From contig NZ_AAEW02000010.1 in the NCBI RefSeq assembly GCF_000167355.1, forward strand, positions 62,001 to 126,000: a stretch of DNA of 64,000 nt. Reading direction: 5' to 3'. Position numbers and translations under genes: made by a program. Source of the DNA: Desulfuromonas acetoxidans DSM 684. GTDB lineage: Bacteria; Desulfobacterota; Desulfuromonadia; Desulfuromonadales; Desulfuromonadaceae. The notes below the pieces were generated by a model that ran no database searches, was not told the DNA's origin, and saw nothing but the letters and a program-made list of their open reading frames with translations. Below are positions 3,516 to 47,062 of the stretch, piece after piece; position 1 is the stretch's first letter, and each line of letters opens with the position of its first letter.

Positions 3516-4595
3516 ATGAAGAAGATTCTTATTCTTGACAAAGACAACGTGACACTGCGTGCCCTGCTTCAGGCATTGCAGCGCTACAGCGATCTTGAAG
3601 TGATCGTTGCCAATGAGCGCAGTGATATCAATCGGGGATTGCAGCAATTGGCCATTGATTTGGTCATTACCGATATTGATGGAACAGAAAGCTGCTGTTT
3701 TGAGCTGATTGAATCAATTAATCGGTATTTTCCCGAGCTGCCGGTCGATGTGCTCAGTGCTCCTCTTTCCCCGGATCTGGAGGCTCGTCTGGCTGAGTTG
3801 CGCATTGCCCGACGATTTACCAAGCCTTTAAAGGCTGATGAAGCCGCTAAAAGAATTCACCAGCAACTGACAAACGGAGCGGTCGGACAGCTCAAGGGCT
3901 TGAGTTTGACATCGGTTTTGCAGTTGATGAATGTCGAACACAAGAATTGTGTGCTGACTGTCGAGACGGACACGGAGCATGGTGAGCTTTTCATTCGCGA
4001 GGGTGAGATTGTTGCGGCCAAAACGGCGACACTGCGTGGCAAGGACGCGGCATACACCATCATCGCTTGGGACAGTGTGCGGATCGGATTTCAGGATAAG
4101 CCTTTCAATGTTGCCCAGGAAATTTCCGAGTCTTTTATGTCTCTGCTTATGGAGGCGCTGCGGTTAAAAGATGAAATGCAGTTGCCACTGGCCAAGCCGC
4201 AGGACACTTCGGGTGATGAAGGGCATTCTTTGGTGCAATCCGGGGCAACGACTCTTCTGGAACAGCAGATTGATTCAGTTCTCGAGCCGTTGCCCGGAGT
4301 TGTCGAATACTGCCTTTACGATCAAGACAGCAACTTGCGCCTGTTCAAATCACGTCGCCAACAGCCAGTCAAAAACCTTCATCCCGGCCATCTTCAGACG
4401 AAAACTGACGACATTGCCCGGCTTCTTCAAGCCGGAAATTTTCAATACATGGTAACCAATGAGGGTCATGGTGTGCGCCATGTCTTTTTTACCTTTGAAG
4501 ATGTTCCCATCACCGTTGGCTTACGGCGTGAGCAGTCGGTCAAAAAGTTCTTGCAGCAATTTAAATCAAAGTTCGATCCCCCGGCACGATTTTAG
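3516..4595 (+). CDS. Response regulator with DUF4388 and C-terminal Roadblock-like region
   Basis: A 359-residue protein counted from MKKILILDKD at 3516; the frame is open to 3438 but the receiver domain starts exactly here. Residues 1-120 form a receiver: acidic pair Asp8/Asp10, phospho-acceptor Asp53 in VITDIDG, and Lys in FTKPLK. Residues about 130-220 match the PatA-type DUF4388 domain (KGLSLTSVLQLMNVE, GELFIREGEIVAA). The C-terminal third begins LLEQQIDSVLEPLPGV and resembles a Roadblock/LC7 module. It heads a row with two further Roadblock-like genes 9 bases and then -8 bases apart, so it probably passes a phosphorylation signal to that complex. The output is unknown. Confidence 0.8.
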   Translation: MKKILILDKDNVTLRALLQALQRYSDLEVIVANERSDINRGLQQLAIDLVITDIDGTESCCFELIESINRYFPELPVDVLSAPLSPDLEARLAELRIARRFTKPLKADEAAKRIHQQLTNGAVGQLKGLSLTSVLQLMNVEHKNCVLTVETDTEHGELFIREGEIVAAKTATLRGKDAAYTIIAWDSVRIGFQDKPFNVAQEISESFMSLLMEALRLKDEMQLPLAKPQDTSGDEGHSLVQSGATTLLEQQIDSVLEPLPGVVEYCLYDQDSNLRLFKSRRQQPVKNLHPGHLQTKTDDIARLLQAGNFQYMVTNEGHGVRHVFFTFEDVPITVGLRREQSVKKFLQQFKSKFDPPARF

Positions 4596-38396: not shown

Positions 38397-38602
38397 TTTT
38401 ATCGCGGGGAATTGTTAGTTGCTGATAACAGTTTCACCTGTTTCTGTAAACCCTTTTAAGTCCCCTGTGCATCAAAAAAAAATATATATAGGGAAATGCA
38501 AATATTTGCAGCCGCAATATCGGAATTATCGATGTGACAAATTTTTAGCGCCTATGTATGATGCTGTTATCTGTTTTTCTTATTTGCGGGTGGCGTTTCA
38601 TC

Positions 38603-39433
38603 GTGAATTTACACATCGACACATTGTGGCACCAAGGTTCAGGCCAATTTAACGAAGATCGGGTTCTTATCGAAGACAACCTGTTCGGGGTGTTTGATGG
38701 TGCCTCCAGTCTGGTCAAAAATCTTTATGATGAAAAAAGCGGGGCCTGGTGGGCGGCGCAGGTCGCGGCTGCGGAGTTTGCCTGCAATGATGATGATCTG
38801 CTGAATCTGGCGCGGCGATCCAACCGTCGGTTACGCGCGGCCATGGAGCAACATGGTGTTGATGTGGCGGATAAGTTACAGCGGTGGAGCACCAGTGCTG
38901 CCGTATTTCGGATGAACGGTGACGACCTCGAATGGGTGCAGACCGGTGATTGCCTGATTATGGCGATTGACCGGGACGGACAGCACCGGTTGCTGACGCC
39001 GTATTATAACCATGATGCGGAGACGTTACTTCAGTGGCAGCAGGAACCCGGAGAAACCGTTGATGATGCGTTGCGTCGTTTGCGGCCGCAGATTGAGCGG
39101 GTACGCCAGCGGATGAATGAAGATTATGGTGTGCTGTGCGGTGACGAGCGGGTGGAATCCTTTCTCCACCATGGTCGGATACGTCATGGTGAGTTCAGCC
39201 ATGTCCTGGCGTTCAGCGATGGCTTGTTTCCCCCGTCTTCGGCTGGTGATGATCCTGATTTTGAGGCCATTGCCGAGCGTTATCTAGAAGATGGCCTCGA
39301 CGGTGTCGGGCGCTGGGTGCGCCAGCAGGAGAAAGCCGACCCGCATTGTCGTCAGTTCCCCCGGTTTAAACCCCACGATGATATGGCCGCCATTGCTGTG
39401 TGTCTGGCTCCCGAATCCGCACGCAAAGCGTGA
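38603..39433 (+). CDS. PP2C-type serine/threonine phosphatase
   Basis: A 276-residue protein if begun at the GTG at 38603 (VNLHIDTLWHQG); the frame is open to 38558, where the added residues look like untranslated leader. PP2C motifs: NEDRVLIEDNLFGVFDGASS near the start (metal-binding Asp in NED and FDG), WVQTGDCLIMAI, LAFSDGLF, and PHDDMAAIAV. It would remove phosphates from Ser/Thr with Mn/Mg. No kinase gene is adjacent. Confidence 0.82.
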   Translation: MNLHIDTLWHQGSGQFNEDRVLIEDNLFGVFDGASSLVKNLYDEKSGAWWAAQVAAAEFACNDDDLLNLARRSNRRLRAAMEQHGVDVADKLQRWSTSAAVFRMNGDDLEWVQTGDCLIMAIDRDGQHRLLTPYYNHDAETLLQWQQEPGETVDDALRRLRPQIERVRQRMNEDYGVLCGDERVESFLHHGRIRHGEFSHVLAFSDGLFPPSSAGDDPDFEAIAERYLEDGLDGVGRWVRQQEKADPHCRQFPRFKPHDDMAAIAVCLAPESARKA

Positions 39434-41004: not shown

Positions 41005-41706
41005 ATGACGGGAAATACTGCTGAAGAATTGGGATTTACAGGTGAATTGCCAACGGTTGGATTGGCGGATTTACTCCAGATGCAAAACCAGAATGGATTT
41101 TCTGGAGCCCTTTCCATTCAACAGGGCGAGCACAAGGGCGCGATCTATTTTCATCAAGGCGATGTGGTTCATGCTGAGTATGGTCGTTGGCGCGGTCTGA
41201 AAGCGGTGTACATCATGTTGGGTCGTGACAAGGGACGTTTTTCTTGCCAAATGGGCCTTGAGCCACCCCGTCAGACGATTGATGTGACGATGAACCACCT
41301 GCTGCTTGAGGGCCATCGCTGGCTGGATGAGCTGACGGATAAACAGCGTGAAGCGCTGTTTTATGACGCACCGCAAGAGCGCAAAGTGAATCGGCTGGTT
41401 AAAAAATTATTGCCGATTCAGGGCGTTGAATATGCGGTGTTGTTCGATGAAAACGGCCAGCCCCATGAAGATGAGACCAATGCCGGTTTGCGCATGTCTG
41501 CCCAGGGCGATCTGATGCGTAATAACGGGGTTGAATTGGGGCGAATTCTCGGATTAGGCGAGCTGCGCAGTGGCATGTTCAGTGGTCGTGGTGGACATAT
41601 GCTGTTGCTGATCTCCAATCTCAAGGCTTTGCTGGTCAGTATCAGTGGCAAAAAAAAACCTCAGTCTGTTGAAGCGGCTGTTCGCAAAACTCTTATGGAT
41701 CATTAA
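41005..41706 (+). CDS. DUF4388 domain protein
   Basis: A 233-residue protein starting at the ATG at 41005, six bases after GGAGG; the ATG at 40993 lies ahead of this signal. Residues about 10-120 are a PatA-type DUF4388 domain (LPTVGLADLLQMQNQNGFSG, GAIYFHQGDVVHAEYG). The C-terminal half is a second alpha/beta unit (YAVLFDENGQPHEDE, GHMLLLISNLKALLVSI) that may be Roadblock-like. It precedes the Roadblock-PstS-OmpA gene by 11 bases, repeating the DUF4388/Roadblock pairing found at 3.5-5.6 kb. Confidence 0.78.
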   Translation: MTGNTAEELGFTGELPTVGLADLLQMQNQNGFSGALSIQQGEHKGAIYFHQGDVVHAEYGRWRGLKAVYIMLGRDKGRFSCQMGLEPPRQTIDVTMNHLLLEGHRWLDELTDKQREALFYDAPQERKVNRLVKKLLPIQGVEYAVLFDENGQPHEDETNAGLRMSAQGDLMRNNGVELGRILGLGELRSGMFSGRGGHMLLLISNLKALLVSISGKKKPQSVEAAVRKTLMDH

Positions 41707-41717
41707 ACGGAACTCTT

Positions 41718-43607
41718 ATGGCAGAGCAAACCAGTAAGACAGAGGGGCACAGCACCCCAGCTGATGTGGTCCAGAGACTCCTGAAGACCGCCGGTGTCAG
41801 TGGGGTGGTGTTATGTAGTCGTGATGGCGAGGTGGTGGGCCACGAATTACCGCATAACTTTACCCACAAAGATATGACGCGTCTGGGCAAGGTGATGAAC
41901 CAGAGTCGCAGCGGGGTGGTGGCTTCGCTGGGTAAAGTGGAGACCGGCGATTTCCGCTACGCCGACCATCGGGTGCTGATCTACTATTTTTCCAAAGGGG
42001 AAGTGCTGCTTCTTTGTGAGCCGGATGTTAAACCGGAGGTGACACGACAGGCGGTATTAGAGCAGAAAGATGCGTTTGATACGTTGATGACCGGTGTCTT
42101 GAGTCAGCAGCGTAAAGAGAGCGCTGAGCCGCAAGCACCTGAACGGGCTTTTTCTGAGACGGCTGTTGAGCAAAAACAGAAACGCTGGCCGATGATGGTT
42201 GCTGTGACGGCGATTCTGTTAATAGGTGTGGCTTTCGGTTACTGGTGGAATATCACGACGTCACTGCCATCTGCCGTCGCTGTGGAAACAGCCACGCAGA
42301 ACACGGTCGCGTCTGTTCAGGATGTGTCGACCCTGGAACCGCGCACCATTCTTGGTTTGCATGGTTCCAACACCATCGGAGCGAAATTAGCACCAGAACT
42401 GGCAAAAAAATATCTGCGCAAACTCGGAGCGAATCGTATCTGGATGAAACCCGGCGCCGAGCACGATGAGCAGGATATCTTTGGTCTCATCGATGGTGTC
42501 GACCTGTTGAAGATTGCTATTCAGGCGCATGGTTCCAGTACCTCGTTTAAAGGCCTTGATGCGGAGCTGTGTGATATCGGCATGGCATCACGGCGAATCA
42601 AAGATAAAGAAGTGGTGATGCTCGAACGGTTTGGCGATATGCGCCAGGCTGCGTCTGAGCATGTATTGGCGATGGATGGTATCGCCGTCATTGTCAATCC
42701 CGCCAACACCATCTCCGAGTTGAGTATGGCCCAGCTCGCGGGGCTGTTTTCTGGGCAGATCACCGACTGGGGCCAGATTCCTGCCAGCGGCTTGACCGGC
42801 CCAGTTGCTGTCTTTGCCCGCGATGAAAAATCGGGCACCTGGGACACGTTTAAAAATATGATCCTCAAACCGCGTAAACTCAGTTTGGCAGAGCAGGCCA
42901 CCCGTATTGAGGACAGTCGTATTCTCACCGCGCAAGTGGCGAAAAATTCACAAGGGATTGGTTTTATCGGCCTGCCTTATATTAAACCGGCCAAGGCGAT
43001 TTCGGTTTCAGAACAGGGGGCAGCCGGTGTGTATCCGACACCCTTTACTGTGGCCACGGAAGATTATCCTCTGGCACGGCGTCTCTATCTGTATTCACCA
43101 GCGTTACCGAACAATGACCACACCCGGGACTTTATCGAGTTTGCCCTGAGTGATTTAGGCCAACAGGTGGTTAACGAGGTTGGCTTTATCAAATTGACCG
43201 TTGAGGAACATGAGTTCACACTGCCGCAAACAGCTCCTGCCGACTATCTGGCTGCAACTCAGGGCGCAAAGCGTCTTTCGGTCACCTACCGCTTTAAAAG
43301 TGGTAGCACCGAACTGGATAATCGCGCTTTACGCGATTTGGATCGTCTGGTGGATTTCATGCATCAAGGGCGCAACCGCTATCGTCCGTTGATGTTGTTC
43401 GGTTTTGCCGACAATATTGGTGAAAACGATGTCAATCAGGTGCTGTCTGAGAAACGGACGCGTAAAGTTTCCACAGCTTTACAGAGCCGTGGACTCAATG
43501 CCAAAGTTGTGATGGGGCTTGGCGAGGCTATGCCTGTTGCCGACAACGCCACTTCAGCAGGGCGTGAAAAGAATCGCCGGGTTGAAGTGTGGATCAGCGA
43601 GCCCTGA
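41718..43607 (+). CDS. Roadblock / TM / PstS-like / OmpA fusion protein
   Basis: A 629-residue protein with an unusual order of domains. Residues 15-125 look like a cytosolic Roadblock/LC7 domain (LLKTAGVSGVVLCSRDGEVV, VLIYYFSKGEVLLL). One TM segment covers residues 157-177. Residues about 208-490 form a periplasmic PstS-like phosphate-binding fold (LGLHGSNTIGAKL, MDGIAVIVNPAN, FARDEKSGTWDTFKN, SQGIGFIGLPYI). Residues about 515-629 are an OmpA-type peptidoglycan-binding domain (RFKSGSTELDNRALRDLDRL, NQVLSEKRTRKVSTAL). It would link a cell-wall-anchored ligand sensor to a cytosolic Roadblock platform. Co-transcribed with the DUF4388 gene; a terminator follows. Confidence 0.85.
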   Translation: MAEQTSKTEGHSTPADVVQRLLKTAGVSGVVLCSRDGEVVGHELPHNFTHKDMTRLGKVMNQSRSGVVASLGKVETGDFRYADHRVLIYYFSKGEVLLLCEPDVKPEVTRQAVLEQKDAFDTLMTGVLSQQRKESAEPQAPERAFSETAVEQKQKRWPMMVAVTAILLIGVAFGYWWNITTSLPSAVAVETATQNTVASVQDVSTLEPRTILGLHGSNTIGAKLAPELAKKYLRKLGANRIWMKPGAEHDEQDIFGLIDGVDLLKIAIQAHGSSTSFKGLDAELCDIGMASRRIKDKEVVMLERFGDMRQAASEHVLAMDGIAVIVNPANTISELSMAQLAGLFSGQITDWGQIPASGLTGPVAVFARDEKSGTWDTFKNMILKPRKLSLAEQATRIEDSRILTAQVAKNSQGIGFIGLPYIKPAKAISVSEQGAAGVYPTPFTVATEDYPLARRLYLYSPALPNNDHTRDFIEFALSDLGQQVVNEVGFIKLTVEEHEFTLPQTAPADYLAATQGAKRLSVTYRFKSGSTELDNRALRDLDRLVDFMHQGRNRYRPLMLFGFADNIGENDVNQVLSEKRTRKVSTALQSRGLNAKVVMGLGEAMPVADNATSAGREKNRRVEVWISEP

Positions 43608-43668: not shown

Positions 43669-43703
43669 AAAGAGACGGGCACCTGCCTGTCTCTTTTTTT
43701 ATG
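43669..43703 (+). terminator. Rho-independent terminator
   Basis: AAAGAGACGGGCA pairs with TGCCTGTCTCTTT across a CC loop and runs into a T tract. Ends the DUF4388/fusion operon. Confidence 0.9.
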
Positions 43704-43897
43704 AGCAGTCGATCTGTAAGTCACTAGAATAATGGATGATTAATCGTGGATGAGGCCATATTTCTTATTTTTTATTATTTTATAGTTATTAGAAGGGTGT
43801 ATTGTGTCTTTTAGACAAAATCTGTACTGACTCTCAATGTCCGATAAAACAATGGGTATGAGATACCTGGATTTAAAAGGATCAAGGAGTGGTGGTA

Positions 43898-46800
43898 ATG
43901 GGGAAACAGACGCATAAACACAAACGATTTCGTCCCACCATTCGTTTGACTGTTGTGACGATTTTTGTGTTGGCAACGGTTCTTACGGCCGCTCTGGCTG
44001 TGGGTTTGCAGTATTATTTCAGCCGTAGCATGGCAACCAGAACAGCGATCAACCGTTTTGACGGTTTGGCCGTTGGTGCCGGAGAGTTTGTCAAAGCGAT
44101 CGACAGACAGGCCACTCAGGCGACCCGATTGCTGGCCAGTTACCCCGGACTGGTCAAAGATCAATGGATTCGGCCCCAGGTGCGCAGTTTGTTTGCCGAG
44201 TTTATGGCGGCCAATCCAATGTTTTACTCGATTTATCTGGGGTTTGATAACAATGACTTCTATGAATTGATCAACCTTAACAGCAACCCTATTGTCCGTC
44301 GGCAACTCCACGCGTTGCCCGAAGATCGGTGGGTGGTGATTACAGTGCGGCGCGATGGTTCCGAGCGAATCAAGAGCTATGCCTATCTCGACTGGGAGTT
44401 TCAATTGCGCTCCCGGCGCAGTGTCCCCAGCGATTATAACGCCATCAGCCGCCCCTGGTTTGTTCAAGCCGGGGCGGATCATGTCAATAAAACCGCACCG
44501 TACCTGTTTCAGATTCTACAGGCGCCGGGGCAAACTTATTCAATGCGTCTTAAAGGTGGTGGGGCGGTTGTTGCGGTTGATATCTCTTTGAGTTCACTCT
44601 CCGGCTATCTGGCCGGACAACGCATTGATGGTGCTGGAGATATCTACCTGTATCAAAAAAGTGGCGAGGTGATTGCCTCTGACCTTGGGGCGGATCGCCG
44701 CGCAAGACTGCCCCACGTCGAGCCTTTGGCGTTATCGGAAAGCGAGCAGGCTCTTGTTGCCGCTTCAGGCACGCTTAAGGTCTCCAATGAAACCAACTGG
44801 GCGCCGATCGACTTTGCCGTTTCCGGGCAGCCGAATGGCTACAGTGTCGATTATTTGAGCCTTATTTCGCAACTGACTGGTCTATCGTTTGAATATGTCA
44901 ACGGTTTTAGCTGGCTGGAACTGGTTGAGCGGTTTCGTAACCAGGAGATTGATGTGTTGCAGTCCCTCTTCCGCACCGAGCAAACGCAACACTTGGGACT
45001 TTTTTCAGACCCCTACCTCTCCTTGCCGTACTCCCTGGTGACCTTACCCGATCATGCGCCGGTGACTCATATCCGCCAGATGGAAGGCAAAACACTGGCC
45101 ATTCCTCGGGGCTGGTCGATCATTGATGTCATTGAGACGAATTTTCCGCGCATCACGGTTAAGGAAGTCGCCACCAGTCGCGAGGCGCTTGAAGCGGTCA
45201 GCCGAAAAAAGGCAGATGCCGGATTGGATTTTGGCGAAATTCTTCATCATATCGCCCGGCACTATTTTTATACTCAATTGCAATATCATGACGCGGTTCA
45301 GTTTGATCCGGTCGCCTTTCCCCACGAACTCCATCTGGCTGTTTCTGCCGATAAAGCTGGCTTGTTGTCGATTCTCAATAAAGCGATTTCTGCTGTGAGC
45401 GATGCTCAAAAACAGGCTTTGGCCGCCAAGTGGTTTGACGATCAGCCACGCCAGAGACAGGGGGTTGTTCCTTATGAACAACTGGTGACTCTGGCCGGGC
45501 ACCCCCACAAACAACGTCGTTTAAACCAATTTATCATCAACGGTGAACAGGTGTTTATTTATGTGACTCCGTTTGCTCAGGTGCACCGGGCGGATGAGTA
45601 TCTGGCGATAGTTATGCCGGTGGATGCTGTGCTACAGCCGGCGTTGGAGAGAGTCACATGGTCAATTCTTTTCACGGTTGTGTTGCTGCTGGTGCTGTTA
45701 CCGACACCGTGGATTTTTGCCTCCCCCATTGTGTCACCAATTAAAGACCTGGCAAAAGAAAATGAGAAAATTCGTCTGCGCCGCTATGACCAATTGCGCA
45801 TTCCCGACAGTCATATCAAGGAAATTCACGATCTCGGTGTGTCGATGAAAATTATGGCCGCTTCAATTCGTGATTATGAAATTAAACAAAAAGCGTTGAT
45901 GGATGCGTTTATTCAATTGATCGCCCAAGCCATTGACGATAAATCTCCCTATACCGGCGGGCATTGTAAGCGAGTGCCCGAGCTGGCGTTTATGCTGGCA
46001 GAACAGGCTGAGCAGAGTAGATTGCCTTCTTTTGCCGATTTCAGCTTTGAAAGCGACGAGCAATGGCGTGAATTTCGTGTTGGTGCCTGGCTGCACGATT
46101 GCGGGAAAATTACCACCCCGGAACATATCGTTGATAAAGGCACCAAGCTGGAAATGATCTACAATCGCATCCATGAAATCCGTACCCGATTTGAGGTGCT
46201 GTGGCGTGATGCTGAGATTCGCTATTGGCAACAGTGCCAACAGAACCCTGACCAACAAGCCCTGTATCGTAAAGAGAGGGACGCTGCCCACAAACAATTG
46301 CAGGATGACTTTGTCTTTGTCGCCGGTATGAATGTTGGTGGGGAATTTCTTGATGAACAAAAAACACAGCGTTTGCAACAACTCGCCAGCGTAACCTGGA
46401 CACGTCATTTTAGCGACCGATTGGGCCTGTCACCGGTGGAAGAGCTACGGCTGCACGGTAAGGAAACTCCGCTGCCGTGTGAGGAGCCGCTTCTGGCCGA
46501 TAAGCCTGAACATGTGATTTCCCGAGATCATGCGGTGCATTACGATTCCCATCTTGGCATTCGTATGGAAATTCCTGAACACAAAGCCAACCACGGCGAG
46601 CTGTATAATCTGCTCGTTGAGCGAGGCACATTGACCACAGAAGATCGCTTCAGGATTAACGAACATATTATCAGCACGATTCGCATGCTGGAGGCATTGC
46701 CATTTCCTCAAGATCTGGCGCGTGTGCCTCGCTATGCTTCGACCCATCATGAAACGATGCGTGGTGATGGCTATCCTCGTCGCCTTGCTGGTAGCGAGCT

Positions 46801-47062
46801 GTCCATTCCCGAACGGATCATGGCACTGGCCGATATCTTTGAAGCCCTCACCGCATCGGACCGCCCTTATCACAAGGCCAAGCCCGTCAGTGTTGCCATC
46901 GATATTCTTTACAGCATGGTGGAACAGGAGCATGTTGACCGCCAAGTCTTTGAGCTGTTCCTGACCAGTGGCGTGTATCTGGAGTATGCCCGTCGCTTTT
47001 TGCCGTCGGAGCAGATCGATGATGTTGATATCCGCAGGTATCTATCGTCTTCAGATGCTTAA
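43898..47062 (+). CDS. Membrane HD-GYP phosphodiesterase with periplasmic sensor and SBP domain
   Basis: A 1054-residue protein starting at ATG 43898, eight bases after AAGGAG. TM1 is at about residues 17-38. A Cache-like region covers about 45-250, and a family-3 solute-binding domain (LKVSNETNWAPIDFAVSG to LAAKWFDDQ) about 290-520. TM2 lies near 590-610, then HAMP, then HD-GYP from about 670. Metal and motif residues are present: WLHDCGK, EHIISTI, HHETMRGDGYP and RIMALADIFEALTA. Some 150 extra residues separate HDCGK from the later core (DHAVHYDSH), longer than usual. It should degrade c-di-GMP in response to a small solute. Monocistronic, terminated at 47089. Confidence 0.92.
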   Translation: MGKQTHKHKRFRPTIRLTVVTIFVLATVLTAALAVGLQYYFSRSMATRTAINRFDGLAVGAGEFVKAIDRQATQATRLLASYPGLVKDQWIRPQVRSLFAEFMAANPMFYSIYLGFDNNDFYELINLNSNPIVRRQLHALPEDRWVVITVRRDGSERIKSYAYLDWEFQLRSRRSVPSDYNAISRPWFVQAGADHVNKTAPYLFQILQAPGQTYSMRLKGGGAVVAVDISLSSLSGYLAGQRIDGAGDIYLYQKSGEVIASDLGADRRARLPHVEPLALSESEQALVAASGTLKVSNETNWAPIDFAVSGQPNGYSVDYLSLISQLTGLSFEYVNGFSWLELVERFRNQEIDVLQSLFRTEQTQHLGLFSDPYLSLPYSLVTLPDHAPVTHIRQMEGKTLAIPRGWSIIDVIETNFPRITVKEVATSREALEAVSRKKADAGLDFGEILHHIARHYFYTQLQYHDAVQFDPVAFPHELHLAVSADKAGLLSILNKAISAVSDAQKQALAAKWFDDQPRQRQGVVPYEQLVTLAGHPHKQRRLNQFIINGEQVFIYVTPFAQVHRADEYLAIVMPVDAVLQPALERVTWSILFTVVLLLVLLPTPWIFASPIVSPIKDLAKENEKIRLRRYDQLRIPDSHIKEIHDLGVSMKIMAASIRDYEIKQKALMDAFIQLIAQAIDDKSPYTGGHCKRVPELAFMLAEQAEQSRLPSFADFSFESDEQWREFRVGAWLHDCGKITTPEHIVDKGTKLEMIYNRIHEIRTRFEVLWRDAEIRYWQQCQQNPDQQALYRKERDAAHKQLQDDFVFVAGMNVGGEFLDEQKTQRLQQLASVTWTRHFSDRLGLSPVEELRLHGKETPLPCEEPLLADKPEHVISRDHAVHYDSHLGIRMEIPEHKANHGELYNLLVERGTLTTEDRFRINEHIISTIRMLEALPFPQDLARVPRYASTHHETMRGDGYPRRLAGSELSIPERIMALADIFEALTASDRPYHKAKPVSVAIDILYSMVEQEHVDRQVFELFLTSGVYLEYARRFLPSEQIDDVDIRRYLSSSDA

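Follow-up and report, generated by a model that had tools for sequence, protein, structure and literature searches.

Little is known of how Roadblock/GTPase polarity systems and the PATAN regulators of type IV pili obtain signals from the cell exterior. Within the window (the whole stretch of DNA that was analysed, 64 kb), one open reading frame appears to carry both a cytosolic Roadblock domain and an envelope ectodomain, and it adjoins a gene of the PATAN type. A wall-anchored receptor with such a cytosolic end and such a neighbour would be a concrete candidate for the missing input. The questions raised by this locus are whether the parts of the protein are what they seem, whether the neighbouring gene belongs with it, and what the assembly may sense and transmit.

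Domain organization and topology of the fusion protein

The features of the locus are collected in Table 1; residues are numbered on the 629-residue fusion protein unless stated otherwise. Beyond the N-terminal part, which is treated below, Pfam detected PBP_like_2 over residues 265-479 (E = 2.6e-25) and OmpA (PF00691) over residues 525-620 (E = 6.5e-16; 58.9 bits against a cut-off of 27.2). The hydropathy scan revealed a single hydrophobic segment, at residues 159-177, and the basic sequence EQKQKRWP just ahead of it places the Roadblock domain inside and the PstS-like and OmpA-like domains outside. Domain order and topology are thus established computationally. The first-pass annotation had proposed a Roadblock domain, a transmembrane helix, a phosphate-binding-like domain and an OmpA-type anchor in one polypeptide, an architecture that Pfam, AlphaFold2 (AF2), Foldseek, VIA-align and hydropathy bear out.

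Table 1. Features of the fusion gene and its partner gene (coordinates are positions within the 64-kb window).
Feature	Position	Strand	Basis
DUF4388 (PATAN-type) partner gene, 237 aa	40993..41706	+	ORF list; Pfam
DUF4388 domain of partner, partner residues 16-114	41038..41334	+	Pfam
Probable second Roadblock-like domain, partner residues 130-237	41380..41703	+	Low-confidence AF2, Foldseek, VIA-align, PDB profile
Roadblock-TM-PstS-OmpA fusion gene, 629 aa	41718..43607	+	Single ORF, ATG to stop
Roadblock/LC7 domain, residues 14-134, cytosolic	41757..42119	+	Pfam, AF2, Foldseek, VIA-align, orthologue matches
Transmembrane helix, residues 159-177, basic N side	42192..42248	+	Hydropathy scan
PstS-like periplasmic binding domain, residues 208-497	42339..43208	+	Pfam, NCBIfam TIGR02136, PDB sequence matches, conservation
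OmpA-like peptidoglycan-binding domain, residues 525-620	43290..43577	+	Pfam, conservation (D565, R580)
Terminator-like hairpin and T tail, after the two-gene unit	43669..43696	+	Consensus scan

Three other readings of the gene were considered and set aside. A fusion created by a frameshift or by assembly is ruled out, since congeners keep the same reading frame on single contigs. An internal start at the two methionines of residues 159-160, which would yield a separate exported PstS-OmpA protein, is not backed by conservation: the methionine pair is not kept in three relatives (L005, L006 and L041). Finally, a mobile or phage origin is unsupported, as a search of a viral collection found no relative.

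The N-terminal part adopts a predicted Roadblock fold

The Robl_LC7 profile (PF03259) matched residues 16-80 of the fusion protein with an E-value of 0.0016 and 18.6 bits, below the cut-off of 23, and it matched all six members of the orthologue set A1 at E <= 0.05 (best 2.5e-4). In a six-frame search with this profile, scores above the cut-off were obtained for the orthologous stretches in G002 (24.5 bits) and G008 (23.5 bits), and scores below it for those in G000 (21.7 bits) and G001 (21.2 bits). A profile search of PDB sequences with the Roadblock part found just two chains, both of Roadblock proteins (E = 0.18 and 0.21), and when a 7-row Roadblock alignment was compared by hhalign with one of MglB-like proteins, the probability was no more than 2.3 per cent. 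Because the hhalign profile comparisons failed, the assignment rests on the fold together with the weak Pfam matches.

The AF2 model of residues 1-135, computed with four sequences, had a mean pLDDT of 76.2 and a pTM of 0.68, and its secondary structure follows the Roadblock order: helix, two strands, helix, three strands, helix. Foldseek searched against the PDB yielded 93 matches at E <= 0.001, the best being MglB (E = 1.0e-5), and the best 50 of the 93 are, by title, Roadblock proteins or complexes with Roadblock-type domains. VIA-align gave Z-scores of 12.7 to 10.7 among the 50 matches listed, with an rmsd of 3.1 over 111 residues. The first-pass annotation had staked its Roadblock reading on similarity within residues 15-125 by profile or by predicted fold, and the modelled fold provides that similarity, to MglB and to other Roadblock structures. 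The N-terminal part is hence a Roadblock domain that is marginal by sequence and clear by predicted fold.

Comparison with two congeners revealed an identity of 93 and 94 per cent for the Roadblock part versus 93 and 95 per cent for the PstS part. Changes fell mostly on third codon positions (30/39 and 46/56), and the linkers around the helix decreased in identity to as little as 59 per cent in one of the two congeners.

A putative wall-anchored oxyanion-binding ectodomain

The PstS-like domain matched TIGR02136 with an E-value of 6.2e-49; its 166.8 bits fall below the NCBIfam cut-off of 206.6, which makes it a PstS relative outside the curated subfamily. Its best PDB sequence matches are solved phosphate-binding proteins, with 4jwo at the top (E = 1.7e-25). 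The anion-binding loops GSNT (216-219) and GSST (272-275), together with R368 and S372-G373-T374, are kept and align with 4q8r and 4jwo, the latter of which is without the arginine; in PstS proteins these residues bind the anion. The loop patterns GS-T, GSS/GSG and R..SGT are conserved in the A1 set and in 78 to 81 of the 81 alignment rows, with R368 and T374 in 80/81 rows each and S372 and G373 in 81/81. Two histidines beside two of the anion loops are specific to the family, H215 in 80/81 rows and H271 in 78/81, although H215 is located within the search motif and the conservation of HGSNTIG (HGSNTIGA) is inflated because the loci were picked with patterns that include it.

In the OmpA-like domain, D565 and R580 are each kept in 80 of the 81 rows; we take these to be the residues that bind diaminopimelate and thereby the wall. 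The joint conservation of these residues and of the anion loops therefore points to a wall-anchored oxyanion receptor, and since the PstS loops are kept, phosphate is a plausible ligand of the predicted binding domain. Pfam scanning of seven window proteins found no ABC transporter parts among them.

The DUF4388 partner gene and its C-terminal half

The upstream gene stops 11 bases short of the fusion gene, and its product matched DUF4388 (PF14332) over partner residues 16-114 with an E-value of 2.9e-19 and 69.7 bits against a cut-off of 25, in agreement with the DUF4388 partner claimed at first. We assume that DUF4388 is the PATAN domain, an identity for which a control match of the profile in Synechococcus is the one piece of help. 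The partner may in fact start at an in-frame ATG at 41005, since GGAGG is found five bases ahead of this codon. Downstream of the fusion gene, positions 43669-43696 can form a terminator-like hairpin of 12 pairs; the scan that detected it found 7 terminator-like sites, as against 3.9 +/- 1.9 in shuffled sequences, and found no promoter-like site upstream of the gene pair.

The C-terminal half of the partner (partner residues 130-237) is probably a second Roadblock domain. The AF2 model of the partner is poor (mean pLDDT 48.9); used in Foldseek, it gave Roadblock proteins as the best rows, with a best E-value of 1.2e-3. VIA-align of residues 130-237 produced a Z-score of 9.4 to Roadblock, with profilins close behind at up to 8.0, and the profile of this half found the Robl_LC7 protein 7f8m as its best match among PDB sequences (E = 0.019). 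Pfam yielded no Roadblock match in the partner at E <= 1, and hhalign probabilities were 5.4 per cent against MglB-like proteins and 4.0 per cent against the Roadblock domain of the receptor. A protein in the genome G016 (locus L148) combines DUF4388 with a clear Roadblock domain (E = 9.3e-10) in one chain and aligns with the window partner, which makes a second Roadblock domain in the latter plausible.

Conservation of the gene pair

Among 136 genomes of the order, surveyed for the PstS-OmpA half at E <= 1e-60, eight carried it, five of them in the genus of the window, where 10 genomes (G000-G009) were covered. At the same threshold the PstS-OmpA half is rare across the phylum (5/297 genomes). 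In seven of the eight order loci, a DUF4388 gene stands immediately upstream, so that conservation of the pair is likewise established computationally. One of these DUF4388 genes (L042, from the metagenome-assembled genome (MAG) G426) is split into two overlapping frames at 3613-4276, reflecting a frameshift or an assembly error. The eighth locus (L043, G417) encodes a weakly similar N-terminus for which the Pfam Roadblock match is absent, and no DUF4388 gene was found on its 6.7-kb contig. The nearest named relative is the MAG Desulfuromonas sp. BM513 (L041), the locus of which matches that of congener G001.

The pair is all that L034 (G096) and L042 have in common with the window neighbourhood, besides one match in L034 to an unrelated window ORF. 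Three other genes were considered as members of the unit. They occur in all four congener loci L035-L038 and are absent from L034 and L042; because they are not common to these two, we left them out. The first, at 38558-39433 upstream and on the same strand, encodes a PP2C-type phosphatase and is kept in L035-L038. A glycosyltransferase gene on the opposite strand lies between it and the pair. The third, downstream at 43889-47062, encodes a 1057-residue protein that unites SBP_bac_3 with an HD-GYP-type HD_5 domain, and it is found beside the pair in L035-L038.

A PstS-OmpA family with different N-terminal modules

A family scan with a six-row alignment as query, covering one genome per species, found 129 relatives of the PstS-OmpA half, of which 80 were kept. 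By their titles, these belong to Desulfobacterota, Acidobacteria, Verrucomicrobia, Fibrobacteria, Ignavibacteriae, Nitrospiraceae, Sulfurovum and Gammaproteobacteria. The number of residues ahead of the core is below 100 in 55/80 loci and at least 100 in the other 25, where ORF starts were set at the first ATG, GTG or TTG and are possibly too long in some loci (L056, L098). A subset of 19 loci, picked for long or unusual N-termini, was searched with Pfam.

The most frequent module identified in this way is DUF4388 itself. Eight loci (L045, L046, L047, L048, L050, L054, L064 and L093) encode DUF4388 and the PstS-OmpA half in one chain, each with a DUF4388 match above the Pfam cut-off, an observation made computationally. 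In seven of the eight, a receiver match precedes DUF4388, above the cut-off in L047, L048 and L093 and below it in L046, L050, L054 and L064; all seven receiver-like domains are without the phospho-acceptor aspartate. That DUF4388 is in other organisms fused to this very ectodomain provides the strongest argument that the receptor and the partner of the window act together.

Further modules were of several kinds. A protein kinase precedes the core in two of the 80 loci (L067 and L074). The kinase of L067, from a Verrucomicrobium, keeps the HRD and DFG motifs; in L074 and in L152 (G297, from the phylum survey), both Geobacter-type fusions, HRG replaces HRD, which makes them probable pseudokinases. 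An Ignavibacteriae MAG protein (L065:5404-7275) has a weak TIR_2 match, below the cut-off (E = 0.0084), ahead of the helix and the core. Three survey loci (L151, L153 and L154) have paired N-terminal cysteines ahead of the membrane helix and PstS-OmpA; reading these, and those of L060, as zinc-ribbon-like is based on the cysteine pairs only. In L044, a carboxypeptidase-regulatory-like stretch follows the helix and is therefore probably outside. By hydropathy, a membrane segment separates module and core in most module-bearing relatives; that of L074 stays under the threshold.

By sequence comparison, then, the PstS-OmpA half represents a family of wide occurrence, and some members carry other signalling modules at the N-terminus. 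The first-pass annotation had recognized the architecture and the DUF4388 partner correctly; the exchangeable-module family and the probable second Roadblock domain of the partner had escaped it.

A model of the receptor and its alternatives

We propose that the fusion protein would act as a single-pass inner-membrane receptor anchored in peptidoglycan. Outside, the OmpA-like domain would grip the wall and the PstS-like domain would bind phosphate or an oxyanion resembling it; on the cytosolic side, the Roadblock domain would serve as a platform for docking and dimerization. Binding of the ligand, or strain in the wall, might rearrange the ectodomain and, through the helix, the Roadblock domain. 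The soluble partner would be the PATAN (DUF4388) protein, whose own probable Roadblock domain could pair with that of the receptor, and the complex would probably regulate either a small GTPase or the type IV pilus motor. Taken as a whole, this model, in which a receptor fixed to the wall has outputs that can be exchanged and works here through a Roadblock/PATAN complex, seems to us evenly poised between right and wrong.

The ectodomain might instead be a passive tether, in which the OmpA-like and PstS-like parts hold the Roadblock/PATAN complex at a defined site on the wall as a landmark and sense no ligand. This reading, which we consider rather unlikely, draws on the wall anchor itself, on the presence of MotB among the weak NCBIfam and PDB matches of the fusion protein, and on the many relatives with short N-termini (55/80) that are seemingly exported without a cytosolic module. 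However, the anion-binding residues, needless in a pure spacer, are kept nearly everywhere, and the PstS part is conserved equally with the Roadblock part. Another variant leaves the proposed receptor mechanism intact and changes only what is sensed, to a wall fragment or to arsenate, sulfate or molybdate. The family-specific histidines H215 and H271 and the PstS score under the NCBIfam cut-off would fit such a ligand, whereas the closest solved structures are those of phosphate-binding proteins and the R..SGT loop has been retained, so we judge a departure from phosphate to be improbable. That the protein serves mainly in periplasmic phosphate capture or in the envelope, with a Roadblock domain that merely dimerizes and transmits no signal, is very unlikely: the short N-termini do indicate that an exported form is common, but where relatives have another module in place of Roadblock it is one of signalling (DUF4388, receiver-like, kinase), and a DUF4388 gene has been retained next to the fusion gene as its dedicated partner.

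Relation to known systems

NCBI has already named the PstS-OmpA core automatically, and Roadblock, PATAN and OmpA are themselves established families. A Pseudoalteromonas sp. THAF3 protein named 'Phosphate ABC transporter substrate-binding/OmpA family protein' has PstS-like and OmpA-like domains in the same order as the fusion protein, with 41.5 per cent identity over its residues 159-626; the match begins at the membrane segment and leaves the Roadblock part uncovered. Residues 1-135 are predicted to fold like MglB and other Roadblock/LC7 proteins. MglB, however, is a free soluble GAP, whereas the Roadblock domain of the fusion protein is tied to a membrane helix with an envelope ectodomain beyond it and has marginal sequence similarity. 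MotB-type stators combine a transmembrane helix with an OmpA-like wall anchor, and thus share with the fusion protein an inner-membrane anchor and a wall-binding OmpA-like domain; they are not known to have a PstS domain or a Roadblock domain.

The Synechocystis PATAN regulators of type IV pili contain the DUF4388 domain that is also present in the window partner, and their combination of a receiver with DUF4388 recurs, receiver-like, on PstS-OmpA in 7/80 loci. Unlike these response regulators, the seven fusions are without the phospho-acceptor aspartate and continue into an envelope ectodomain. The Streptomyces conservons, as described in PMC4316618, resemble the window system in placing a Roadblock protein between a sensor and a GTPase; they differ from the window protein in consisting of separate genes, with a histidine-kinase sensor and without a PstS-OmpA ectodomain.

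Searching the open-access literature, with subscription journals outside its scope, we found no paper on such a combination or on a modular receptor family of this kind. We tentatively suggest, with somewhat less than even confidence, that the PstS-OmpA ectodomain may define a superfamily, so far undescribed, of phosphate-like receptors that are anchored to the wall and have repeatedly acquired one or another cytosolic output (Roadblock, PATAN, pseudo-receiver plus PATAN, Ser/Thr kinase or pseudokinase, possibly TIR, and a zinc-ribbon-like module), and that the version encoded in the window may be the first envelope receptor to act on a Roadblock/PATAN complex and, by way of this complex, on a Ras-like GTPase or on the pilus motor. 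The family might deserve a name of its own. Domain swaps inside the cell on a shared outside part suggest a little-noticed modular kind of receptor, and because nature has already placed a range of modules on this ectodomain, ligand and signalling mechanism can be tested across hosts.

Possible links to small GTPases and type IV pili

Two publications bear on the output. One describes binding of PATAN domains to the pilus motor PilB in Synechocystis (PMC10519157); the other places PATAN genes near some MglA groups and recounts an earlier study that had MglB near PATAN (PMC4316618). In the window itself, no relatives of MglA, MglB or PilQ were found with queries that, as a control, recover their own loci, and none were found in the flanks of 80 related loci. 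As none of these lies nearby, an output in polarity or motility is something we infer, and the link of the receptor to MglA or to type IV pili would be drawn from the partners and the literature. The first-pass annotation had recommended a search of the genome for an MglA-type partner: although no such gene was found in the window or the 80 flanks, the genome of the window contains a gene for an Arf/Ras-like, MglA-like GTPase (L039:4843-5430) adjoining a Roadblock (MglB-like) gene. The genes for PilO, PilP and a secretin are also present in this genome (L040), and the same contig stretch encodes a second small Roadblock-type protein (L040:5824-6183).
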